Below, piece by piece: positions 2,726 to 64,000 of a stretch of DNA of 64,000 nucleotides. Source of the DNA: a bacterium (GTDB lineage Bacteria > Planctomycetota > UBA1135 > UBA2386). The translations under genes were made by a program, and so were the position numbers. Location of the stretch: contig JAUILN010000006.1 in NCBI GenBank assembly GCA_030432695.1, positions 434,001 to 498,000 on the forward strand, given 5' to 3'. A model generated the notes under the pieces. It saw only the letters and a program-made list of their open reading frames with translations. It was not told the DNA's origin and made no database searches. Position 1 is the first letter of the stretch; each line of letters begins with the position of its first letter.

Positions 2726-3775
2726 ATGCGAAGCCCGCTCGTCGTTCTCTCCCTGGTCCTTTCCCTGCTTCCGTTCCTCGGCGCCGCTGCCGGCGCGCAG
2801 GACGTCCTCAACGAATACGTCATCTATCCCGGTCCCGACGGCCGCTTCTACGACCGCGGCAATCTCGGGACCAGCGAGGGTGAGGTGCTGCAGGGCTACC
2901 ACAAGAGCACCCTGGCAGGTCTCGGCGACGACGGCACCGCGGCGCGGATCGAGAGGATCGTCACGCCGATCGCCGACTTCCGGAACAACACGCAGGAGAC
3001 CTACGACGTGGTGGTGCGAGGCGGCACCGATGCCGCGGGACCCGACCTGAGCGTCGCGCCGCTCGGCGAGGTGATCGGCCTCAACACGCCGCTGCTCACC
3101 AATGGCAACCGCACCGCGTGGTATCTCACTGCGCGGCTCGCTGCGCCGATCGCGATCCCGCGCAACGACTTCTTCACGGTGGGCCTGCGCTTCGAGGCCG
3201 AGCCGACCTGGCCGGCCGACGGCAATGCGGTGATGGTCAGTCCGATGACCACCCACAAGAGCGGTCCCCAGCAGGAGGACCAGGCCTGGAACGTGGTCGG
3301 CGATGCCTCGAACGGCAACGCCAATGGCGCCACCGTCTCGCATCCGGCCGGCATGGTCTCCTACCACATGCGGGTCGGCACCTCGCAGCCGGTCTTCCAG
3401 CTCGGCGTGGACGACGTCGGCACGCTGCGCTTCGGCTATGGCGGCATGTTCCCCGACCCGGGCTTCACCACGCTGGCCGCGCTGGTGCAGCACCGCTCCG
3501 CGGCCGCCACGGGCCAGGGCACCGCGTTCGTGTTCGCCTCGACCCCGATGCTGCCGTTCCCGCTGCAGATCCCCGGGCTGGCGAACAGCATGTGGATCAA
3601 CCCGAGCATCCTGGTCCCGGTCGGCAGCTTCCCGCTCGCCGCGGCCGACGGCATCGGCACGCGCACCCTGTTCCCGGTGCCGTTGGTGGCGCCCGGCACG
3701 GCGCTCGGCTTCCAGGCGGTGACCACCGACGGAACCGGGTTCTGGTTCACCAACGCGCAGGACTGTCGGATGTGA
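2726..3775 (+). CDS. Secreted hypothetical protein with shared C-terminal module
   Basis: Starts at the ATG at 2726, which has an AGGA Shine-Dalgarno six bases upstream and gives a clean signal peptide (MRSPLVVLSLVLSLLPFLGA, then AGAQ). The frame is open further upstream to 2630, but those residues are Arg/Ser-rich and unlike a signal sequence. The mature protein, about 325 residues, is rich in Gly, Thr, Asn and Val with few charges, consistent with an extracellular beta-rich fold; I recognise no catalytic motif. The end (VAPGTALGFQAVTTDGTGFW, then FTNAQD) resembles the C-termini of five other secreted proteins in this window (see findings). It is followed 91 bases later by an ECF sigma factor on the same strand. 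Function unknown. Confidence 0.75.
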   Translation: MRSPLVVLSLVLSLLPFLGAAAGAQDVLNEYVIYPGPDGRFYDRGNLGTSEGEVLQGYHKSTLAGLGDDGTAARIERIVTPIADFRNNTQETYDVVVRGGTDAAGPDLSVAPLGEVIGLNTPLLTNGNRTAWYLTARLAAPIAIPRNDFFTVGLRFEAEPTWPADGNAVMVSPMTTHKSGPQQEDQAWNVVGDASNGNANGATVSHPAGMVSYHMRVGTSQPVFQLGVDDVGTLRFGYGGMFPDPGFTTLAALVQHRSAAATGQGTAFVFASTPMLPFPLQIPGLANSMWINPSILVPVGSFPLAAADGIGTRTLFPVPLVAPGTALGFQAVTTDGTGFWFTNAQDCRM

Positions 3776-11236: not shown

Positions 11237-13765
11237 ATGATCGCTCGCACGAGACTCCTCCGTTCGGCGTTGGCCCTCGCGGTCGCGGCGCCGTTGTCCG
11301 CCCAGTCGGCGCCGCCGCCCTCGTTCGTCGTGGATGGCCTCCGCCACCTGCCGCTGTTCGACGGGCGGGTCACCTGCCTCGTGTCCGGGGACTTCGACGG
11401 CGACCACCTGGTCGATCTCGCGACGTTCACGCGGTCGGGTTCGGGCGCCTTCCTTCGGGCGACCGAGCCGGGCTACTTCGAGGTCAGCCAGAGCATCGAG
11501 GAGCCGGCTCGCTGGTTCGCGTGTGCAGCGGGCGACTTCGACGGCGATGGCGACGTCGACGTCTGCGCGTCGCGCCAGGTGAGCGGCACCGATTCGTCGA
11601 CCCGGATGGTGCTCTGGGTCAATCAGGGAGGAGCGTTCCAGGAGGCACCTGCGTCACGCTTCCCCGTGGCTGGTGGAGGGCGGATCGATCAGCTGAACGT
11701 GCTCGACGTCGACGGCGATGGCGATCTCGATCTCGCGACCGATCGTTACTTCCTGATCAACGACGGTTCGGCAACGTTCTCCGAGGGTACGGAGTACGCG
11801 TCGAGGCAGGGCGGGGAGGTCCGGTCGCTGGTCGCGGACCTCGACGGCGACGGCCTGCTCGACGTCTGGACCGTCGACGGCAGGCAGGCCGCGGTGCTGC
11901 TCGGCCAGTCCGGCGGAGGCTTCGTGCAGGTCTTCCGGCAGCCGTCGGTCGGCCCCAAGCGTTCCGCTCTCGGAGACTTCGACGGCGACGGCGACCTCGA
12001 CCTGGCGTTCGCCCTCGTGAGGCAGACCGGCCTGGCTCCGGGGCGGCTCTGGGTCTTCGAGAACCGACTGCAGGGCGGCTTCGTCGACCGGAGCGCCGAC
12101 TGGTTGCAGGAGGTACCCCTCAGCCCCGACGCGCTGTTCGCCGCGGACCTCGACGGCGATGGCGACAGCGACCTCGTGACCACCGACGTCGGTCGCCCCG
12201 CGGTGCTGCTCAGCGACGGCACGGGGCGGTTCACGACGTATCGGGAACTGGACGTGCCGGGTCGGTCGATCCCGCTGCTCGTCTTCGACGCGGACGGCGA
12301 TGGTGACCAGGACGTCGCCGCAGAAGGTCGGCTGTTCCTGAACGACGGTGCGGGCCGGTTCGTCGACGCGAACCGGCGCCGGATTCCGAGCGATCTGGAG
12401 GGAGCGACGCAGATCGTCGCGGCCGACCTCGACGGCGACGGTGCCGAGGACCTGCTCCTGCAGCGGTGGGACGGCCTGACGATCCTGCGCAACGCCGATC
12501 CGGGACCCTTCGAGCGGTCGAGCCTCGACGTGGCGGTGCTCTATCCGGGCTTCCATCAGTCCAGCCGGAGCACCGTGGTCGACTTCGACGCCGATGGTGC
12601 TCTGGACCTCGCGGTGCCGGTGTCGGGCCTCGGCACGCGCCTGCTCCGCAATACCGGCAACCTGCAGTTCATGGACGTCACCGCAGGTCGGATTCCGGAC
12701 GACGAACCGTACGGCGGAACCAACGCGGTGGTGTTCGGCGACTTCGACGGTGACGGCGACGTCGACGCGGTCGAGAGCGAACAGCGGCGCTACATCCGGC
12801 TGCTGCGCAACGACGGGACCGGGGTGTTCCAGGCGGAGCAGATCTTCGAGAGTTCTTCGACGGGAGTCGATCTGCTGGCGGGCGACGTCGATGGGGACGG
12901 TGACCTCGATGTCGTGCACCAGCCTCGGATCGCGCGATCGGGGCTGCTGTGGAACGACGGCACGGGTCGCTTCACGGAGGCCGTCGTGGCGTCCTGGCTG
13001 AGTCAGACCGTGCAGGCCCTCGTGGACATCGATGCGGACGGCGACCTCGACGTGGTGGCTCGCGGAGCGAGTCTGCCGGCGTCGGCGACGCTGTACCGCA
13101 ACCTCGACGGGACGTCCTTCGACGCCGGCACGCCACTCGGCCTGGAGGCCGTCACGCAGGTCGCGGCCGGCGACTTCGACGCGGACGGGGACGTGGACCT
13201 GGTCCTGACGCAGAGCTTCGGCCTGGAGTCCTCGGTGGCGCGCCTGCTGCTCAACGACGGCACGGGTCGCTTCGAGCCCACTCCCGAGGAACTCATCGAG
13301 TCCACGGTGGACCCGGGAGTCTGGGGGAGTCTCGACGCGGACGGTGATGGCGACCTCGACCTGGTCCGTTCCGTGTCGGGTGAGACCCTGCTGTTCGTCA
13401 ACCGGCTGCGCCAACTCCGGAGCCTGCGCCTCGGTCGTCCGGGTCGCTCGCTCGAGTACCGCTTCGCGAATGCCGCCACCGGCGTGCCGACGTTGGTGAT
13501 CACCCGCTTCGCCGCCGGCCTCGCCGACCCAGGCCTCCCGCTGCCTTTCTTCGGCGTGTTCCGCCTCGACCCGTTCACCATGATCGATGGCCCCGAGGTG
13601 ATCCTGCCGGACCCGGGCGGCGAGGTCGCGCGCACTCTGCCGTTACCTGCCGACCGGGCGTTGGTCGGTGCGGAGGTGTTCTGTCAGGCGCTGCTGGTGT
13701 CCGGCAGCGACCTCTCGGAGTGGCGCCTGACCAACGTCGTGGCCAACGAGATCGTCGGCAACTGA
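11237..13765 (+). CDS. Secreted FG-GAP/VCBS repeat protein
   Basis: 842-residue extracellular protein with signal peptide (MIARTRLLRSALALAVAAPL, then SAQ). It consists mainly of FG-GAP/VCBS repeats of about 50 residues: about fourteen Ca-binding-type loops of the form DxDGDxDxD (for example DFDGDGDVD, DVDGDGDLD, DADGDGDQD), each followed by LLxNDGTGRF-type strands. These repeats build a beta-propeller like that of integrin alpha chains and are usually calcium-stabilised. The final 100 residues leave the repeat pattern and end in LVGAEVFCQALLVSGSDLSE, then WRLTNVVANEIVGN, the C-terminal module shared with other secreted proteins here. The frame is open for 1.5 kb upstream of 11237 only as an antisense shadow of valS; the ATG at 11237 supplies the signal peptide. 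Adhesion or binding is likely but unproven. Confidence 0.92.
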   Translation: MIARTRLLRSALALAVAAPLSAQSAPPPSFVVDGLRHLPLFDGRVTCLVSGDFDGDHLVDLATFTRSGSGAFLRATEPGYFEVSQSIEEPARWFACAAGDFDGDGDVDVCASRQVSGTDSSTRMVLWVNQGGAFQEAPASRFPVAGGGRIDQLNVLDVDGDGDLDLATDRYFLINDGSATFSEGTEYASRQGGEVRSLVADLDGDGLLDVWTVDGRQAAVLLGQSGGGFVQVFRQPSVGPKRSALGDFDGDGDLDLAFALVRQTGLAPGRLWVFENRLQGGFVDRSADWLQEVPLSPDALFAADLDGDGDSDLVTTDVGRPAVLLSDGTGRFTTYRELDVPGRSIPLLVFDADGDGDQDVAAEGRLFLNDGAGRFVDANRRRIPSDLEGATQIVAADLDGDGAEDLLLQRWDGLTILRNADPGPFERSSLDVAVLYPGFHQSSRSTVVDFDADGALDLAVPVSGLGTRLLRNTGNLQFMDVTAGRIPDDEPYGGTNAVVFGDFDGDGDVDAVESEQRRYIRLLRNDGTGVFQAEQIFESSSTGVDLLAGDVDGDGDLDVVHQPRIARSGLLWNDGTGRFTEAVVASWLSQTVQALVDIDADGDLDVVARGASLPASATLYRNLDGTSFDAGTPLGLEAVTQVAAGDFDADGDVDLVLTQSFGLESSVARLLLNDGTGRFEPTPEELIESTVDPGVWGSLDADGDGDLDLVRSVSGETLLFVNRLRQLRSLRLGRPGRSLEYRFANAATGVPTLVITRFAAGLADPGLPLPFFGVFRLDPFTMIDGPEVILPDPGGEVARTLPLPADRALVGAEVFCQALLVSGSDLSEWRLTNVVANEIVGN

Positions 13766-21328: not shown

Positions 21329-24300
21329 TCACCGATAACTCGTCGCCGCCACGTTCGTCACCGGGATCGGCGTAGATCCGGGACTGCCGAGGTCGAGCTG
21401 CATCGCCTGTGCATACCAGGTCGCGCCGCGCAGCGGGGACCCGGCTCGGAGCGGGCCGATGCGCGCCGCGCCGGTGGTCGCGTCGTGGCGCGCAGCCGGC
21501 TCGATCAGGAACACCGAGGCGAAGTTCAGGCCGATGTCGAGCGAGACCACGCCGGGTAGCACCGAAGGCTGGCGGAACGGGCTGAGGACCAGGTAGCTCG
21601 CCAGATTGCCGCTCGCACCGCCGTGGTGGGTGAACCAGATCTGGTCGTCGCCGACCGACAGGCTGCGCGCGGTCGCCAGGATCCGGCTCGTCGGGTAGAC
21701 GAGCTGGGCGTTGCGCGAGTTGCTGCGTCCCGCCGGGTTCACGAGGCGGATCGGATAGCTGCCGGCGGCGAGACCTTGCGGGACGAAGATCTCGATCCGG
21801 GTGTCCGAGACGATCCGGAACCAGCCGTCGGCGAAGCCGCGCTCGTTGCGGCTCGCGAATGCCAGGGTGCCGAACTCGATCTCGTTCACGCCCTGGAAGT
21901 CGGTGCCCGTGAGCACCAGTGGCGTGTTGCCGACGGTGGTCGTGGTCCGCACCGGCGAGCCGCTGATCAGCGGGGCGCGCAGGTACTGGATCGTGTCGCT
22001 GCGGATGTTGCTGACGTTGCCAGCGGTGTCGCGGACCTGCACGTAGAGCCGCTTGGTGCCCTCGTTCGCGTTGCCGCCGAACGCCGACAGGTCGACGCCT
22101 CGGCTGGCCGCATAGACCTGCCAACCGCTCCAGTTGCTGTTGTCGGCCGAGTAGCGGATCCGGTCGAGGCCGCTGTTGTCGTCGCTCGCGGCGACGCGGA
22201 CCTGCACGCCGAGGATCGCGGTGTGGCTCGCGCCGCCTCCGAGTTCGACCGAGGTGAGCACCGGGGCGACGGTGTCGATGAGGACCGGGCCGAAGCGGGC
22301 CACGGCCCCGCGGTTGTCGACGTTGTCGATCGCCCGGAGCTCGAACATGTAGCCGCCGCTGGCGGCGGGAGTGTCCGAGGCCGTGAACGATGTCGAGGTG
22401 GCCGCGCCTGACATGTTCACCGCCGTCGGATCGGCCGGGTCCCCGCGGCCCCAGGCGTAGGCGAGTCCGTCCAGTCCGGCGCAGCCGTTGTCGTTCGCCG
22501 CGCTCCACAGGAACCGGACGTTGCGGTCGTTCGACCACCGGCTGGCGGTGTGGCTGCTGCTGCGCAGGTTGGCGATGCCGCTCGGCGCGAGGCCGTCGAC
22601 GCAGACCTGGACCGAGTTCGTCGCAGGTTGGGGCGAGGGGGAGGCCGCCGCCGAGGTGCTCAGGGTGAACGTCCCGCTGTTGGTCGGCGCGCGCAGCGTG
22701 TAGCGCACCGAGCGGTCGGTGCCGCGGCCGAGGACCACCTCGCCGGTGAGGCTCGGGTACGGTGACGACGGGTAGCCGATGCCGACCGGATAGCTGTAGA
22801 CGTCGCCCTCGGCCGAGGTCCGAGCCATCTCCAGCGTCACGAAGGGCGAGAAGCTCGGGTCGACGCGCGCGGTCTCGAACTCGCCGAGGCCCACCGCCTC
22901 GCGGATCCGGGCGGTTGCGACGATCTCGGTGCCGGGGCGGATCACGTCGTCGCTGACCGAGAGCACGTGGACCGGGCCGGCGACGTAGGTGTCGTCGCGG
23001 TAGGCGACCACCGACAGCGCCGGATAGCAGGCGCTCGACACGCTCTGGCCGAAGACCTTGAAGCGGATCCGCTTGCCGCGCGCCGAGTCGATGAAGCTGG
23101 CGGTCCGGCTGGCGAACGACAGCATGTTCTCGATGCCGCTCGCCAGCGAGAAGTCGCCGGCGTTGCCAGCGCTGTCGAACGGTTCGACGTCGACGTAGCA
23201 GCGGAGGTCGTTGACTCGTGCCTGGGTCGCGCCGGCGGACGCGGCGGGTTCGATCCAGGTGACCACCGCCTTCATCGCCTCGAGGTCGGTCGGTGCCTGG
23301 ATCTCCCAGTAGAACCAGTTGCCCGAGCTGCTGATCGGCGTCGAGCGGACGCCGTTCCACAGACTCCAGTTCGAGGTGCTCCAGTGCATGCGGTAGGCGT
23401 TGATCAGGCCGAAGCCGCCCTGGCTGCCGAACCAGCCGCTCGAGCTGCCCGGGTTGCTCCACCACTCGGCCGTCGCCGCGGCGGTGGCCTTCATGTTCTG
23501 CGGACGCAGGTTGAAGGTGCTCGAGTGGTCGATCAGCCCGATGAGCGTGCCGGTCACGTGCGGTGCGGCCATGCTGGTGCCGGACTTGTTGGTGTAGCCG
23601 CGCTGCGAGAGATTGCTGGTCGAGGTGATCGAGCTGCCTGGTGCGACGACCTCGGGCTTGCGGCGGTTGTCGCGGGTGCCGTACTGCGAGAACGACGACA
23701 TCGCGCCGGCTGCGGTGCTGGTGTCGGAGTAGTCGTCGACCGAGCCGACCGTGAGGCAGTTCTTCGCGGTGCCCTCGAGCAGCACGCCGACCCCACGGTT
23801 GCCGGCCGCGAAGACGTGCAGCTGGCGGTGGTCGTAGACGTAACCGTCGACCGTGCGCGGTGCGGACTCGGTGCCGTACCACTGGTTGGTCGAGGGCGGC
23901 GTGCCCCAGGAGTTGTTGATCACGGGCGGCTTCGGTGAGGTCTCGCCGCCGGCGGTGTAGCCGTTGCTCATCGCGGCGTAGAGCGATGCGAAGCTGCCGT
24001 GCGGCGCGCCGGTGTCGTCGAAGAGCCGGCCGATGAACACACGGCTGTATCCGTAGTCGCCGATGTCGGGAGCTGCGCCCTTGTATCGGACGTCCACCGA
24101 GCCGCTGCCGCCGACCGTGCCGGTCACGTGCGTGCCGTGGCCGTGGCCGTCCACGAACGGGCTGCCGCCGGGCACGTTCGACCAGCCGACGAAGTTCTTG
24201 TTCAGGTCGAAGTGCCGGCCGCTGCTGCCCTGGACCCCGGAGTCGACGATGCCCACGGTGATTCCGCTACCGCCGTAACTGGAGCGCACCCGGTCGACGC

Positions 24301-25258
24301 CGATCATCGACATCGAGGTGTCGTCCTGGAGTTCCGGCGCGAGGCGCAGCTCGAGGAAGGCGACCTCGTCGAGGGCGGCGAGGCGGGCGACCGCGTGGCG
24401 GGCGACCCGGCCGTGGAAGACGAACACGTCGGCGACTTCGTGGTACTCCTCGAACCGGAAGCCGGCGTCCTCGAGTGCCTGCTGGATCGGACCGTTCGGG
24501 ATCGTCGTGGTGTGCGTCGCTTCCTCGAGCTGGCGGTCGTCGTCGTGCGTGGTGCGCGTGCCGAGTTCGACCGTGCGACTCCGGTCGTCGAGGTCCGAGG
24601 CATGCACCGAGACCGTGATCTCCAGGCCCTCGGTGCCGTCGCCCTCGAGCAGCCGTTCGGCGAGGTGCGGTTCGACCTTCTGCGCGTCCTGCGGGTAGCC
24701 GATCCAGCGCACGAACGGCAGCTCGGCGAGTCCTGGGATGGCGGCATGCGGCACGCGCGCGACCCAGCTCTGCCAGGTGTGGGTGCCCAGGATCTCACCG
24801 CCTCGAGCCACGAACGCGGCGCGCTTCGACTCGTCGGCGAGACGGCCGCTCACCATCACGTAGGCGAAGCTGTGGCCGGCTGGATCGCTGCGTCGCGCCG
24901 TCTCCAGGCGCGGATCGATCCCAGGCGCCGGCCGCCAGGTGCCGCCGGCGAAGGCCAGCGTGTAGGGGTCGCCCACGGGCCGGGTGCCGACCACGTTGCC
25001 GTCCTCGTCGAGGACCTCTTCCGTGGGGCGGAAGTCGGGTGCGTCGTCGGTGATGGGCTGATGGAACGTCTGGTCGGCGGAGAGCCACAGCGGCTCGTGG
25101 ACCATCGCCGGACCGATCTCGGCGGTGCGGGTCGGCTCCTGTGGCGTATCCAGCGCGACCGGGATGCGGTCCTGGGCGGGGAGTGCCGCGAGTGCCGCGG
25201 CGGCTACCGCGAGGCCGGCCAGTGCCTGTCGGCCGCGGCGGCGAAGTCTGTGTTGCAT
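21329..25258 (-). CDS. Secreted subtilisin-like serine protease (S8), multidomain
   Basis: 1309-residue secreted protease. Signal peptide (MQHRLRRRGRQALAGLAVAA, then AALAALPAQ); AAGGA-type Shine-Dalgarno about 9 bases before the ATG at 25258. A propeptide-like region of about 300 residues precedes the S8 domain. The triad is complete: Asp in GIVDSGVQG (about 338), His in DGHGHGTHVTGTVGG (about 374), oxyanion Asn in INNSWGTPP (about 447) and Ser in NKSGTSMAAPHVTGTLIG (about 561). After the protease come several beta-sandwich-like regions of about 100 residues each, including Ig-like blocks (AVARFGPVLIDTVAPVLTSV; ASDDNSGLDRIRYSADNSNW) and an IPT-like block (NTPLVLTGTDFQGVNEIEFG). The end (LRGATWYAQAMQLDLGSPGS, then TPIPVTNVA) fits the C-terminal module shared with other secreted proteins here. 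An extracellular degradative role is likely. Confidence 0.95.
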   Translation of the reverse strand: MQHRLRRRGRQALAGLAVAAAALAALPAQDRIPVALDTPQEPTRTAEIGPAMVHEPLWLSADQTFHQPITDDAPDFRPTEEVLDEDGNVVGTRPVGDPYTLAFAGGTWRPAPGIDPRLETARRSDPAGHSFAYVMVSGRLADESKRAAFVARGGEILGTHTWQSWVARVPHAAIPGLAELPFVRWIGYPQDAQKVEPHLAERLLEGDGTEGLEITVSVHASDLDDRSRTVELGTRTTHDDDRQLEEATHTTTIPNGPIQQALEDAGFRFEEYHEVADVFVFHGRVARHAVARLAALDEVAFLELRLAPELQDDTSMSMIGVDRVRSSYGGSGITVGIVDSGVQGSSGRHFDLNKNFVGWSNVPGGSPFVDGHGHGTHVTGTVGGSGSVDVRYKGAAPDIGDYGYSRVFIGRLFDDTGAPHGSFASLYAAMSNGYTAGGETSPKPPVINNSWGTPPSTNQWYGTESAPRTVDGYVYDHRQLHVFAAGNRGVGVLLEGTAKNCLTVGSVDDYSDTSTAAGAMSSFSQYGTRDNRRKPEVVAPGSSITSTSNLSQRGYTNKSGTSMAAPHVTGTLIGLIDHSSTFNLRPQNMKATAAATAEWWSNPGSSSGWFGSQGGFGLINAYRMHWSTSNWSLWNGVRSTPISSSGNWFYWEIQAPTDLEAMKAVVTWIEPAASAGATQARVNDLRCYVDVEPFDSAGNAGDFSLASGIENMLSFASRTASFIDSARGKRIRFKVFGQSVSSACYPALSVVAYRDDTYVAGPVHVLSVSDDVIRPGTEIVATARIREAVGLGEFETARVDPSFSPFVTLEMARTSAEGDVYSYPVGIGYPSSPYPSLTGEVVLGRGTDRSVRYTLRAPTNSGTFTLSTSAAASPSPQPATNSVQVCVDGLAPSGIANLRSSSHTASRWSNDRNVRFLWSAANDNGCAGLDGLAYAWGRGDPADPTAVNMSGAATSTSFTASDTPAASGGYMFELRAIDNVDNRGAVARFGPVLIDTVAPVLTSVELGGGASHTAILGVQVRVAASDDNSGLDRIRYSADNSNWSGWQVYAASRGVDLSAFGGNANEGTKRLYVQVRDTAGNVSNIRSDTIQYLRAPLISGSPVRTTTTVGNTPLVLTGTDFQGVNEIEFGTLAFASRNERGFADGWFRIVSDTRIEIFVPQGLAAGSYPIRLVNPAGRSNSRNAQLVYPTSRILATARSLSVGDDQIWFTHHGGASGNLASYLVLSPFRQPSVLPGVVSLDIGLNFASVFLIEPAARHDATTGAARIGPLRAGSPLRGATWYAQAMQLDLGSPGSTPIPVTNVAATSYR

Positions 25259-25739: not shown

Positions 25740-26801
25740 ATGAAGTCCTCCTCCCTTCTCGTCGCGACCCTCTGCCTCGCCGGCACCGCGACGTCCCAGT
25801 TCACCAGTCCCGCAGGCTACCTCACGACCGAGGGCAGCAGCAACCACGACTACATCCTGTTCAAGTACGACCTGATGCGCTGGCAGCAGCTCGATGACAC
25901 GAGCGTCGGCCAGGCGCCGATGCAGGCGTCGCGCATCTCCTGGCGGCGTGACGGCACCAACACCGGTGACGCCACGTGGTTCGCGCGCACCATGGACATC
26001 GAGGTCATCCTCTCCGAGTCGGTGCCCGCCGCCGGCGTGTCGGTGAACCAGGACGCCAACTACCTCAACCCCGGCGCTCCGACCACCGTGTTCACGATGA
26101 AGCCGGTGAACCTGCCCGACTGGACCGCGCAGCCCGGCACGACCCCCGCCCCCTTCGACCTGGTACTGCCGCTCGACACCCCGTGGGTGTACACGGCGCA
26201 GAACTCCTACCTCTGGGAGGTGCGCACGCGGAACAACACCTCGGCCAGCGACTACGGCAACGACTTCCAGTCGATCTCGGGCAGCCGCCCGAGCATCAAC
26301 AGCGGCACCAACGTCGGCACAGGTTGCGTGACCACCGGCAACACCGCGGCGATGACGCTGTCGGCGCGCGCCGAGAACCAGATCAGCCGGTTCCGCATCG
26401 ACTACGAGCTCAGCAACGCGCCGATGAGCACCGGCACGTTCTTGAACCTCGACTTCGTGAACTCGAACCTGACCATCCCGGGTCTGTGCACGACCGTGGT
26501 CGCCGTGCCGACCCTCAACCTGTTCGCCGGCACCACCGACGTCGCCGGTGACCTGCAGTTCGGCCTCGAGAACATCCCGCCGCTGCCGGGCCTCGCCGGC
26601 GCGACCGTGTTCTCGCAAGCGTTGGCGATCGACCCGAACCTCGGCCTCGGAGTCGCGCTCTCCAACGGCGAGCAGAACACCTTCCCGAGCTTCACCGGCA
26701 CGCCGGTGCAGACCACGCGCGTCTACGGCTACCAGCTCACGAACGGCTCGATGCGGGCCCCCAGCGCGTGGACCGGCGGCATCGTCACGCGCTTCGACTG
26801 A
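25740..26801 (+). CDS. Secreted hypothetical protein with shared C-terminal module
   Basis: 353-residue secreted protein; signal peptide MKSSSLLVATLCLAGTATSQ from the ATG at 25740. The mature chain is rich in Thr, Asn, Ser and aromatic residues with few Lys, as for extracellular beta-rich proteins (DYILFKYDLMRWQQLDDTSV, WYVYTAQ-like segments, TRNNTSASDYGNDFQSISGS). No catalytic motif is recognised. The C-terminal third starts with TIPGLCTTVVAVPTLNLFAG and contains LAGATVFSQALAIDPNLGLG followed by VALSNGEQN, matching the module found at the ends of five other secreted proteins; here about 35 extra residues with a second LTNG follow. The same frame is open from 25125, but the upstream part lacks coding character. 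Divergent from the S8 protease gene. Function unknown. Confidence 0.8.
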   Translation: MKSSSLLVATLCLAGTATSQFTSPAGYLTTEGSSNHDYILFKYDLMRWQQLDDTSVGQAPMQASRISWRRDGTNTGDATWFARTMDIEVILSESVPAAGVSVNQDANYLNPGAPTTVFTMKPVNLPDWTAQPGTTPAPFDLVLPLDTPWVYTAQNSYLWEVRTRNNTSASDYGNDFQSISGSRPSINSGTNVGTGCVTTGNTAAMTLSARAENQISRFRIDYELSNAPMSTGTFLNLDFVNSNLTIPGLCTTVVAVPTLNLFAGTTDVAGDLQFGLENIPPLPGLAGATVFSQALAIDPNLGLGVALSNGEQNTFPSFTGTPVQTTRVYGYQLTNGSMRAPSAWTGGIVTRFD

Positions 26802-46734: not shown

Positions 46735-48798
46735 TCAGCTTCCGATGCGGGTCCGCACGCCGTTGCTGAACGTGGCCCCCAAGGCGTTGGCGGTCGGATC
46801 CAGCACGTAGAACTGGGTGTAGAGGTAGGCGCCGACCATGCTCGGGTCGCCGAACCTGAACAGCACGGACGCTCGACCCGAACCGGTGGTCCGCGCCAGG
46901 ATCGAGACCAGCGATTCGGTGTGGTACCAGCAACCCGGTGCGCCGAGGCTGGTCAAGTTCATCGGCAGCGGAACACCGGTCGACGTCCGCTGGCTGTCGA
47001 TCCCGAAGTTCAGCACGCATTGAGCGTTGCCCGGTGCGGTGGAGAGTTCGTAGTTGACGGGCCTGCCGATCGACGGAGTCCCGGCGGCCCAGTGTGACAG
47101 CGGGCCAGCACGGCCGCCGCAGGTGGAGCCGAAGGTGTTGAAGCGGCCGCTGACGACGTTGGCGAGGCGAACGCCGTAGATGCCTTCGGTGCCGCCACCG
47201 ACCGTCGCAGCACCAGCGAAGACGCCGCGCTGCCAGCTCAGCATCCAGCAGTCGGTCGTGACCGCGCGGCCATCGGCGAGGACGAAGGAGAGATCGAGGA
47301 TCCGCGGATTGGCGAGGAGGGATTTGGCGACCACGGTCCGGGTCGAGCCGTTGTCGGTGATGCGACATCGCAGGCCGGCCCAGGTGCCGCGCTGAGCGGC
47401 CGGCACCACACTGTCGTCGCGATCCTCGAAGACCATCCGAGCCGTTACACCATCGAGCTGCACCTGCCACTCGCCGAGGTATTGGAGCACGTCGTTCGGA
47501 GTGGAGCCGGAGAAGCTCGGCTGGAGGAAGCCGTCGCTGCCGAGGATGGAACTCGGTTCGCGGGCATAGCCCCCGAAAGCTGGATTGGGGAGGGCGCCGG
47601 GGTTGTCCTGGTGCCAGCCTGCCAACTCCGCCCCGTCTTGGTCGACGATGTAGTAGGTGAATCCACGGCCGACGCCGGTGTTGCTCTCGCGCTCGTCGTC
47701 CCAGCGCATGTTCGGGTAGGAGCCTTTGAACCAGAACAGCAGCTTGTCGCCTTGGATCCGGCCGTTGACCCGATGGGCGGTGCCGTTCGCGTCGAAGAAG
47801 GTGCCGATCCTTCGGTCGGGGACATTGACGCCCCGCTCGGTCAGCCAGAGCTGGGCGATCCCCGGCAGATGGGTGACGTCGAGCGTGCCGCGGTGGCCGT
47901 CGAAGCAGAGGTTGCGTCGGCCGACGAACGCGACCTGCGGCCATGGCCCGGGGGTGGCGACTCCGGTGAAGTAACCGGCCTCGTAGCCGTACTGGACGTA
48001 GTCGTAGCCGATCCGCGTGAAGCCGCCCGGGTTCGAGGTCGGCCCCCAACTGTTCTTGGCGAGGAAGTAGTGCTGGCGGGGGTCGGGGTGGGTGCGGTCG
48101 TAGCCGACGAGCAACATCGAGTGAGCGCCCTGGCTGGGGCGGTTCGGGTCCGCGTGCCAGATGCTGCCGCTGCGGTCGCCACGGAGGCTGAAGTCCCAGA
48201 CGACCTCGCGTCGGCTACGCAGCACGGATTCGATCTCGGTCGCGCTGGAGGGGACGCGCAGCGTGGCGTAGCCGGTTGCGTAGAAGTAGCGAGGCGCCGT
48301 CAGCGCTGCGCGCGGCAGGTTCCTCGGGTCGAGGTTGAAGGTGTTCACGTTGCGCTGGACCTGCCAGTGCGGATCCTGCCAGCTTGGGTGGGCGCCCAGG
48401 TCGTAGCCGCCCGGCCGGTAGCGCATCCGCTGCTCCTCGGGCACCCGCATGCCGTTCGCCAGCCACTTCACGTGGCCGGTGCCGCCACCGCCGCCGAACG
48501 CTCCCACCTGGTTCTCGGTCTCGTCGGCACTGCCGATGTCGTTCCAGGTCTGGTGGAGCCAGAACGTCTTGCCGAGGTAGTTCTCGAACTCCTCGGACAG
48601 GTCGATGGAGGTCCAGCCGACCCGCTTGTAGGCGGCCTCGAGGGCGGCGACCGCTGCGAAGGTCACGCAGGTGTTCCGCGACCCCTGGTTGCGGATCGGC
48701 GTCTGGTCGGCGATCAGATCGAACGCCGACTGGGTGGCGCTGGGGGCGGCGAGGAAGCCCGCGGCGAGCAGGGCAACGGCGAATGGCGATGTCTTCAT
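46735..48798 (-). CDS. Secreted papain-like (C1) cysteine protease with shared C-terminal module
   Basis: 687 residues from the ATG at 48798, preceded by AGGAG at good spacing; signal peptide MKTSPFAVALLAAGFLAAPS, then ATQS. Peptidase C1 motifs: QGSRNTCVTFAAVAALEAAY (oxyanion Gln38, catalytic Cys44), GAHSMLLVGYD (His about 226) and FLAKNSWGP (Asn about 249). There is no obvious propeptide, as in other bacterial C1A enzymes that start close to the Cys. After the catalytic domain come about 400 residues of beta-rich domains (GTFFDANGTAHRVNGRIQGD, GEWQVQLDGVTARMVFEDRD). The final 100 residues (LGAPGCWYHTESLVSILART to YLYTQFYVLDPTANALGATF, then SNGVRTRIG) are the clearest copy of the C-terminal module found on several secreted proteins here. 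Extracellular proteolysis is expected. Confidence 0.92.
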   Translation of the reverse strand: MKTSPFAVALLAAGFLAAPSATQSAFDLIADQTPIRNQGSRNTCVTFAAVAALEAAYKRVGWTSIDLSEEFENYLGKTFWLHQTWNDIGSADETENQVGAFGGGGGTGHVKWLANGMRVPEEQRMRYRPGGYDLGAHPSWQDPHWQVQRNVNTFNLDPRNLPRAALTAPRYFYATGYATLRVPSSATEIESVLRSRREVVWDFSLRGDRSGSIWHADPNRPSQGAHSMLLVGYDRTHPDPRQHYFLAKNSWGPTSNPGGFTRIGYDYVQYGYEAGYFTGVATPGPWPQVAFVGRRNLCFDGHRGTLDVTHLPGIAQLWLTERGVNVPDRRIGTFFDANGTAHRVNGRIQGDKLLFWFKGSYPNMRWDDERESNTGVGRGFTYYIVDQDGAELAGWHQDNPGALPNPAFGGYAREPSSILGSDGFLQPSFSGSTPNDVLQYLGEWQVQLDGVTARMVFEDRDDSVVPAAQRGTWAGLRCRITDNGSTRTVVAKSLLANPRILDLSFVLADGRAVTTDCWMLSWQRGVFAGAATVGGGTEGIYGVRLANVVSGRFNTFGSTCGGRAGPLSHWAAGTPSIGRPVNYELSTAPGNAQCVLNFGIDSQRTSTGVPLPMNLTSLGAPGCWYHTESLVSILARTTGSGRASVLFRFGDPSMVGAYLYTQFYVLDPTANALGATFSNGVRTRIGS

Positions 48799-49379
48799 GA
48801 GTGACTCCTGGTCGTGCTGCCTGCTGGATGGCCGGCACGCCAGGAGTGCAAGGCGGTCGCGATTCCGTCGCGCCATCGAACGGAATTGTCGGGAGGCGGA
48901 CCGGGGGCCTGACCCCGAGCCCCGGGTCGGCCGATGTCGGCCGCGCGGACCGGTGTTCCACTCCGATGGAGAACACCCGGATCACGGCCCACGGACCGGC
49001 GGCGGACTCGTGCGGGCGACGGCCAAGGAATGCCGGTCAAGCCGGCACGAGTCGCTTCCTGGCGCGTCTCCCGGTGCTCCCGGTATCCCTCCTCCCCCGG
49101 CCCCCGGACGGACACGCTGTTCCTCGAGTTGAACACCGCGCCGCTCACCGGACGGGTGGACTCCCATTCGGAGATCGTGGCGTCGACGGCCTCGCTGCGG
49201 GGTGGGAGTCTGTCCTGGCACAGCGAGGTCCCCGATCCGAAGCCGGGCTACTCGCGGCCCCCGCTTCGGAGTTCGAGCTGGCCAAGGTCACCGCGGTCTC
49301 GGCCGTCGCCGCGACCGTTGCGAGCGGCGGTCGTGCGGGTGGTTGGGGAGGACGAGGAGGACCTGGAGCGGAGGGAGAC
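48799..49379. other. 581-base region without a confident gene; possible degraded coding remnant
   Basis: Lies upstream of the C1 protease and downstream of the DUF262 gene, both on the minus strand. It must hold the protease promoter. On the plus strand around 49110-49260, one frame reads like real protein (LFLELNTAPLTGRVDSHSEI, then VASTASLRGGSLSWHSEVPD), and another frame at 49262-49330 does too (ASEFELAKVTAVSAVAATVA), which would fit a frameshifted remnant. No start codon with ribosome-binding site joins them. I cannot name the family, and the reading may be chance in GC-rich sequence. Confidence 0.3.
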
Positions 49380-63261: not shown

Positions 63262-64000
63262 TCAGAAGCCGAACGTGGCGCTCAGGCCGTTCGACACGCC
63301 CACGCCGAGCGCGTTCGGCGGGTTCGTGATGTCGCCGTAGACGCCCTGGCTCTGCAGCGAGACCCCGATCAGGTTGACGTCGTTCGGGATCGGCGTCGAG
63401 ATCAGGCTGCGGCCCATCGCGTTCGGGGCCGGCATCGGCAGCGCGACGAGCGCATCGACCAGCACGAAGCAGCCGGGCGCGCCAAGGATCGTCAGGTCGA
63501 TCGGCGGGGTGGTCGTGGTGCCCAGGTTCAGCGCGGTGGCGAGCTGCGACTGCGGCACGTTGTCGAGGATCAGGTCGATCGTCTGGCCGAGGCCTGGGGG
63601 AGCGCTGGCGGTGTGCGCCAAGGCCACGAAGCCGTCGGTCGAGAACGGCGCTGCGGTGATGTCGGCCGCGACGGCCAGGAGGCCGTTGCCAGCCGAGAAG
63701 CCGGCGAGGAAGTCGGCGGTGGTGATGGACTGCCAGGCCATGACGACCGAGCCGTCGGCGCGGAACTGGATCTGCGCGGTGTTGGCGCCGGTCGCGGAGT
63801 ACTCGGGGACCATGTCCCAGGTGACCATCGCCATGCCCGGGAAGGTGTCGAAGTAGACGCCGCCGCTGTTCGCGGGGTTCAGGTCGTCCCAGAGCAGAGC
63901 CCAGCGCGTGCCTTCATCGACGAACTGCTGGACGCTCTCGGAGAGATCGGAGCCGAGGAACAGACCGGTCGGAGCGATCCAGCCGTTCGAGTCGATGTCG
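63262..64000 (-). CDS. Secreted protein with shared C-terminal module (N-terminus outside window)
   Basis: The frame is open from the window edge (64000) to the stop at 63262, so only about 245 C-terminal residues are seen. The visible part begins IDSNGWIAPTGLFLGSDLSE, then SVQQFVDEGTRWALLWDDLN, followed by GGVYFDTFPGMAMVTWDMVP and NTAQIQFRADGSVVMAWQSI. This is a beta-rich extracellular pattern resembling planctomycete secreted proteins that report a 'nidogen-like' or similar domain; I cannot assign it firmly. The end (LGAPGCFVLVDALVALPMPA, then LQSQGVYGDITNPPNALGVG, then VSNGLSATFG) is a clear copy of the C-terminal module also seen on the C1 protease at 46735 and others. A strong terminator hairpin follows. 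Start and full length unknown. Confidence 0.82.
   Translation of the reverse strand, partial: DIDSNGWIAPTGLFLGSDLSESVQQFVDEGTRWALLWDDLNPANSGGVYFDTFPGMAMVTWDMVPEYSATGANTAQIQFRADGSVVMAWQSITTADFLAGFSAGNGLLAVAADITAAPFSTDGFVALAHTASAPPGLGQTIDLILDNVPQSQLATALNLGTTTTPPIDLTILGAPGCFVLVDALVALPMPAPNAMGRSLISTPIPNDVNLIGVSLQSQGVYGDITNPPNALGVGVSNGLSATFGF

Follow-up and report, generated by a model that had tools for sequence, protein, structure and literature searches.

A domain that is absent from Pfam and NCBIfam closes hundreds of unrelated exported proteins in the genome of the planctomycete bacterium analysed here. It was recognised in a window of 64,000 nucleotides, the whole stretch of DNA under study, in which six proteins had been proposed to share a C-terminal module (Table 1). 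That proposal holds for the proteins at 46735, 63262, 25740 and 11237, and remotely for the one at 21329; for the protein at 2726 the case is suggestive only. By analogy with the T9SS CTD, we are inclined to read the domain as a lineage-specific, folded C-terminal targeting domain, used for sorting or for anchoring.

Membership of the six window proteins

All six proteins were recovered at the positions from which they had been described, each with an apparent Sec signal peptide by a heuristic call; the protein at 63262 starts just outside the window, and its signal peptide was read beyond the window edge. The host types named beforehand (subtilisin, papain-like protease and VCBS propeller) are borne out by Pfam.

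Table 1. Positions of the host proteins and their C-terminal domains within the window, with the supporting evidence.
Feature	Position	Strand	Evidence
Papain-like (Peptidase_C1) protease, host of the clearest copy	46735..48798	-	Pfam PF00112 5e-10; signal peptide MKTSPFAVALLAAGFLAAPSATQ
C-terminal domain, clearest copy, last 144 aa	46738..47169	-	HMM 3e-48; model pLDDT 96.2
Secreted protein, no assigned fold, start beyond window edge	63262..64000	-	693-codon ORF running on in L163; signal-peptide-like MQNHALRAAAAIAA
C-terminal domain, second clear copy, without first Cys	63268..63693	-	HMM 3e-33
Secreted protein, no assigned fold	25740..26801	+	Signal peptide MKSSSLLVATLCLAGTATSQ; no Pfam match
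C-terminal domain, IPGLC variant	26307..26681	+	1.1e-4 with first profile, 1.5e-13 at iteration 2
Tail of ~40 aa after domain	26682..26798	+	Likewise in 11 other own-genome members
FG-GAP/VCBS propeller protein	11237..13765	+	PF13517 1.6e-68; signal peptide MIARTRLLRSALALAVAAPLSAQ
C-terminal domain, diverged copy	13415..13744	+	1.1e-6 at iteration 2; own-seeded iteration leads to main family
Subtilisin (Peptidase_S8) with signal peptide	21329..25258	-	PF00082 4e-34
C-terminal domain, second, remotely homologous subfamily	21332..21721	-	hhalign 95.4% to main family
Secreted protein, no assigned fold, with signal peptide	2726..3775	+	No Pfam match
C-terminal region, possible remote member	3353..3772	+	hhalign 85.9%, C-terminal half only

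Membership of the copies at 46735 and 63262 is certain from their sequences. Profile A1, seeded with 20 copies from the own genome plus the 63262 copy of the window, matches the reading frame at 46735-48876 and the one beginning at 63262 at E values far below 1e-26 (Table 1), both being part of the seed; a plain sequence search from 46735, independent of this profile, also found other copies. The proteins at 25740-26801 and 11237-13765 lay outside the seed and were reached with the first profile and at iteration 2, respectively. Iteration seeded from 11237-13765 alone returned the same family, with 229 of 230 matches in common.

For the two remaining C-termini, relatives were gathered from 34 genomes belonging to the taxonomic family. 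Those of 21329-25258 form a second C-terminal family of 28 sequences, always 4-14 residues from the stop (loci L218-L242 besides the window copy) and represented in 24 of the 34 genomes, which aligns with the main family over its whole length (E 1.9e-8). The nine sequences collected for 2726-3775 align with it over the last ~55 columns only. Reversed and column-shuffled hhalign controls gave at most 1.2%, and among 60 decoys a value above 3% was obtained only for 21329 itself (70%) and for one probable further member (28.6%). On these profile comparisons the 21329 C-terminus is counted as a remote member of the main family, and its subfamily may represent a parallel tag class; membership of the 2726 C-terminus is suggestive, and a single-sequence AF2 model of it was uninformative (pLDDT 36).

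Sequence, coupled cysteines and predicted fold

The original prediction described a module of about 100 residues beginning at GAPGC or IPGLC. The domain is in fact some 130-145 residues long, with GAPGC in mid-domain, about 65 residues before the end. Its consensus reads fGxGCxGsxG...P.lG.tf.l.l...lllGxs...pLP.dL..lGaPGC.L...G.A...lpiPnDPaL.G..ly.Qa.vlDPgaN.lGl..Sngl..tiG. The two Cys columns are coupled: among 189 copies, 168 have both residues, 11 have neither and 10 have one, so that 179 are concordant. This pattern suggests a disulfide, as expected in an exported domain.

With 32 sequences as input, AlphaFold2 predicts an all-beta structure of eight strands at high confidence (mean pLDDT 96.2, pTM 0.88). 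No solved structure was matched by Foldseek below E 1e-3. Its best rows are a mixture of all-beta and Ig-like proteins at low TM-scores, and among these weak neighbours are Ig-like domains, a carbohydrate-binding module and an S-layer protein. The domain has no match over the curated cut-offs of Pfam and NCBIfam, 21 family members searched against Pfam likewise gave none, and neither PDB sequences nor a plasmid tblastn search yielded a match. No description of the domain was found in the open-licence literature, the only part that was searchable, and an earlier description is possible.

Copy number and distribution

The own genome comprises 10.03 Mb in 37 contigs. A plain protein search of it with the last 101 residues of 46735 returned at least 150 matches (best non-self E 3e-16), as did profile A1, for which the weakest among the matches listed stands at 5e-16. 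Around these matches ~2.1 Mb was fetched and the profile iterated, giving 248 ORFs at E<1e-4, or ~246 once two window/locus duplicates are subtracted; the reversed ORFs of the same ~2.1 Mb gave zero profile matches. A random, unbiased 400 kb from the unfetched parts contained 11 further copies. Scaled over the remaining ~7.9 Mb (about 217 further copies), this leads to an estimate of ~450 copies per genome, with a Poisson range on the 11 counts of about 350 to 640 and with diverged subfamilies left out.

It had been set down beforehand that the similarity should be judged after alignment with statistics, as a refutation test; it proved highly significant, with E values down to 1e-48. That compositionally similar C-termini resemble one another by chance has nothing left in its favour: those E values, the zero reversed-ORF matches, the decoy controls and a pLDDT of 96 together rule it out.

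Copy numbers are 50 or more in each of the 12 further genomes of the own family that the relatives set contains, and at least 150 in some; in neighbouring families of the order they lie between 0 and 144. Across a phylum sample, the domain occurs in 61 of 392 Planctomycetota genomes. A scan of contigs from 84,980 species with two exact peptide patterns, and thus non-exhaustive, returned 31 named relatives, all Planctomycetota except one record titled only 'uncultured bacterium'. This agrees with the anticipated restriction to planctomycetes, with one record untyped.

There is a tendency for tagged genes to be grouped: one locus (L189) has four tagged ORFs in a span of about 18 kb, and further groups occur at C30:244-248 kb and C36:547-552 kb.

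Position, signal peptides and hosts

The position of the domain is close to invariant. Of 244 strong copies, 216 end at most 9 residues from the stop and 225 (92%) at most 18, with a mode of 1 residue. Twelve others are followed by a tail of 34-41 residues, and seven are placed elsewhere: four directly after a signal peptide (L116, L069 and two in L123), two internally (L145, L110) and one in an ORF that runs into the signal peptide of the next gene (L070). All 11 copies in the unbiased 400 kb end within 14 residues of the stop, and 39 of 44 copies from other planctomycete genomes within 15. One copy per ORF is the rule in 244 of 244, and no duplicate within an ORF was found. Placement at the extreme C-terminus, as first proposed, is nearly always found; in the window, 25740 departs from it by its tail.

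The tailed copies constitute a subgroup in which 34-44 residues follow the domain (in the window and at L112, L062, L160, L146, L150, L088 and others) and which is found in other planctomycete genomes too (L048, L057, L044). The tail may add further strands or serve as a second element in processing.

Signal peptides were called for 209 of 231 tagged proteins (90%) and for 509 of 1054 other genes (48%; Fisher p 6e-36) by a lenient heuristic; many of the 22 tagged proteins without a call seem to have a miscalled start or an interrupted ORF. Matches are accordingly neither scattered internally nor spread over cytoplasmic proteins. The stronger expectation, that they would always be C-terminal and accompanied by a signal peptide, has exceptions, about 6 of 244 being N-terminal or internal.

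The host parts are diverse. From 218 of them, 83 unrelated sequence clusters were obtained, 63 of which are singletons, and Pfam assigned 42 families on 85 hosts, including Kelch and FG-GAP propellers, subtilisins, sulfatases, lectins, beta-helix proteins, a beta-lactamase and an endonuclease; CBM96 and laminin-G proteins are also represented. For two of the tagged sulfatases there are untagged paralogs whose sequences stop 30-50 residues after the aligned catalytic part, and since these paralogs end just after the catalytic domain, the C-terminal domain is an add-on. At one locus (L154:17685-18803) a partial Ser/Thr kinase-like ORF continues in frame into the domain; this is probably a collapsed or frameshifted region of the assembly, or else a real fusion.

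The host range bears on the idea that the domain caps the structure of beta-propellers and other exported proteins, or chaperones their folding, and plays no part in targeting. Among hosts with a Pfam match, Kelch and FG-GAP propellers are indeed the most frequent. The domain is also found, however, on sulfatases, subtilisins, a beta-lactamase and an endonuclease, a very short host (L189, roughly 75 residues) carries it too, and the untagged sulfatase paralogs do without it, all of which makes such a role improbable.

A more serious competitor is an extracellular CBM-like or Ig-like binding domain that would hold secreted proteins non-covalently to a surface polymer, S-layer, sheath or environmental polysaccharide, with no sorting signal involved. 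Accessory domains of this kind resemble the present one in being all-beta, extracellular and attached to enzymes and propellers, and the weak Foldseek neighbours, together with hosts that bear lectins, CBM96 or laminin-G, point the same way. The few N-terminal and internal copies do so as well: if the signal were strictly C-terminal, neither the four copies that follow a signal peptide nor the two internal ones would be permitted. They count against a tag and make the binding domain the main rival that is still alive. Binding modules, however, often repeat and occur at both protein ends, whereas this domain is never repeated within an ORF, is nearly always terminal and is assigned by neither Pfam nor Foldseek. 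That so many unrelated hosts carry it speaks against binding as well, and we regard this live alternative as unlikely on the whole.

Proposed role in sorting or anchoring

The function first suggested was an export or surface-anchoring tag. Position, signal peptides and unrelated hosts agree with that suggestion, and the tag function itself is what we infer. Three features by which a functional class of this kind is recognised were found, namely a nearly always terminal position, one copy per protein and many unrelated hosts. Because the domain is folded, terminal, present once per ORF and carried in lineage-specific numbers by very many unrelated Sec-exported hosts, a tag read by one shared machine would explain its occurrence.

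In the targeting mechanism proposed here, Sec export would come first, after which the domain would fold in the periplasm and form its disulfide. The folded shape, not a linear motif, would then be recognised by one shared partner; recognition would be by the folded domain because a TM segment and a basic tail are absent. That partner might be a translocon in the outer membrane or a receptor that anchors proteins at the surface, and would bring the cargo to the cell surface or beyond it. The logic would be that of the T9SS CTD, reached through an apparently unrelated sequence and a putative machine.

Low-copy relatives (family f3; L172-L181) encode one tagged protein of ~560 residues in a conserved gene run, with products of about 855, 570, 125, 560 (tagged), 510 and 607 residues, that adjoins a gene for a secreted protein judged by eye to be metallo-beta-lactamase-like. 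The run common to these genomes includes no obvious translocase, as judged from the sequences only. A new planctomycete sorting or outer-membrane secretion pathway, in which a folded, disulfide-linked C-terminal signal of ~140 residues would serve several hundred cargoes per genome independently of T9SS, exosortase and sortase, is put forward tentatively, as a possibility that we hold somewhat doubtful.

How planctomycetes move extracellular proteins across their unusual envelope, and hold them there, is little understood. With the domain family, hundreds of hypothetical proteins can be annotated as exported, a set of cargo is defined, and a genetic search for the putative machine becomes possible. 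Should there be a translocon, it would constitute a further C-terminal-domain secretion route besides T9SS.

Comparison with known C-terminal tag systems

The PEP-CTERM/exosortase, GlyGly-CTERM/rhombosortase, MYXO-CTERM/myxosortase and LPXTG/sortase systems resemble the present one in placing a C-terminal tag on many unrelated exported proteins per genome. Tripartite tags consist of a short motif, a TM helix and a basic tail (PMC11980579). In contrast to these short tags, the present domain is folded, and a TM-like segment was seen in 2 and a basic tail in 6 of 244 copies, which rules out a tripartite CTERM tag of the PEP-CTERM kind. The own genome does encode one exosortase and two PEP-CTERM proteins (G000:C5:373636-374406, C34:152545 and C30:442217), a small separate tag system with no bearing on this domain.

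The T9SS CTD is the closer comparison. It is an Ig-like sandwich of low sequence identity, and its recognition has been attributed to the fold (PMC5445135). That the domain is itself a diverged T9SS CTD, served by a true T9SS, would fit its C-terminal position on Sec-exported cargo and its comparable all-beta fold class. Against this, no Por_Secre_tail match over cut-off was found in the own genome, and PDB sequences gave no match even though T9SS CTD structures exist there. SprA_N was found neither in the own genome nor in the 392 Planctomycetota genomes, and C25 was not found either, in searches that had no positive control and leave these absences unproven. Membership of T9SS is thus not supported, and we consider it very improbable. 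Eight strands are predicted where the T9SS fold is a seven-strand, Ig-like 3+4 sandwich, and no T9SS CTD was recognised among the best 50 Foldseek rows, a ranking made without direct superposition. The T9SS CTD (Por_Secre_tail/TIGR04183) belongs to Bacteroidota and measures ~70-80 residues, whereas the present domain occurs in Planctomycetota, where the T9SS core went undetected in that uncontrolled search, is nearly twice as long, has a conserved Cys pair and shows neither PxGxYVV nor KxxxK in its consensus. What the two have in common is a folded, all-beta, C-terminal domain carried by many unrelated Sec-exported hosts.
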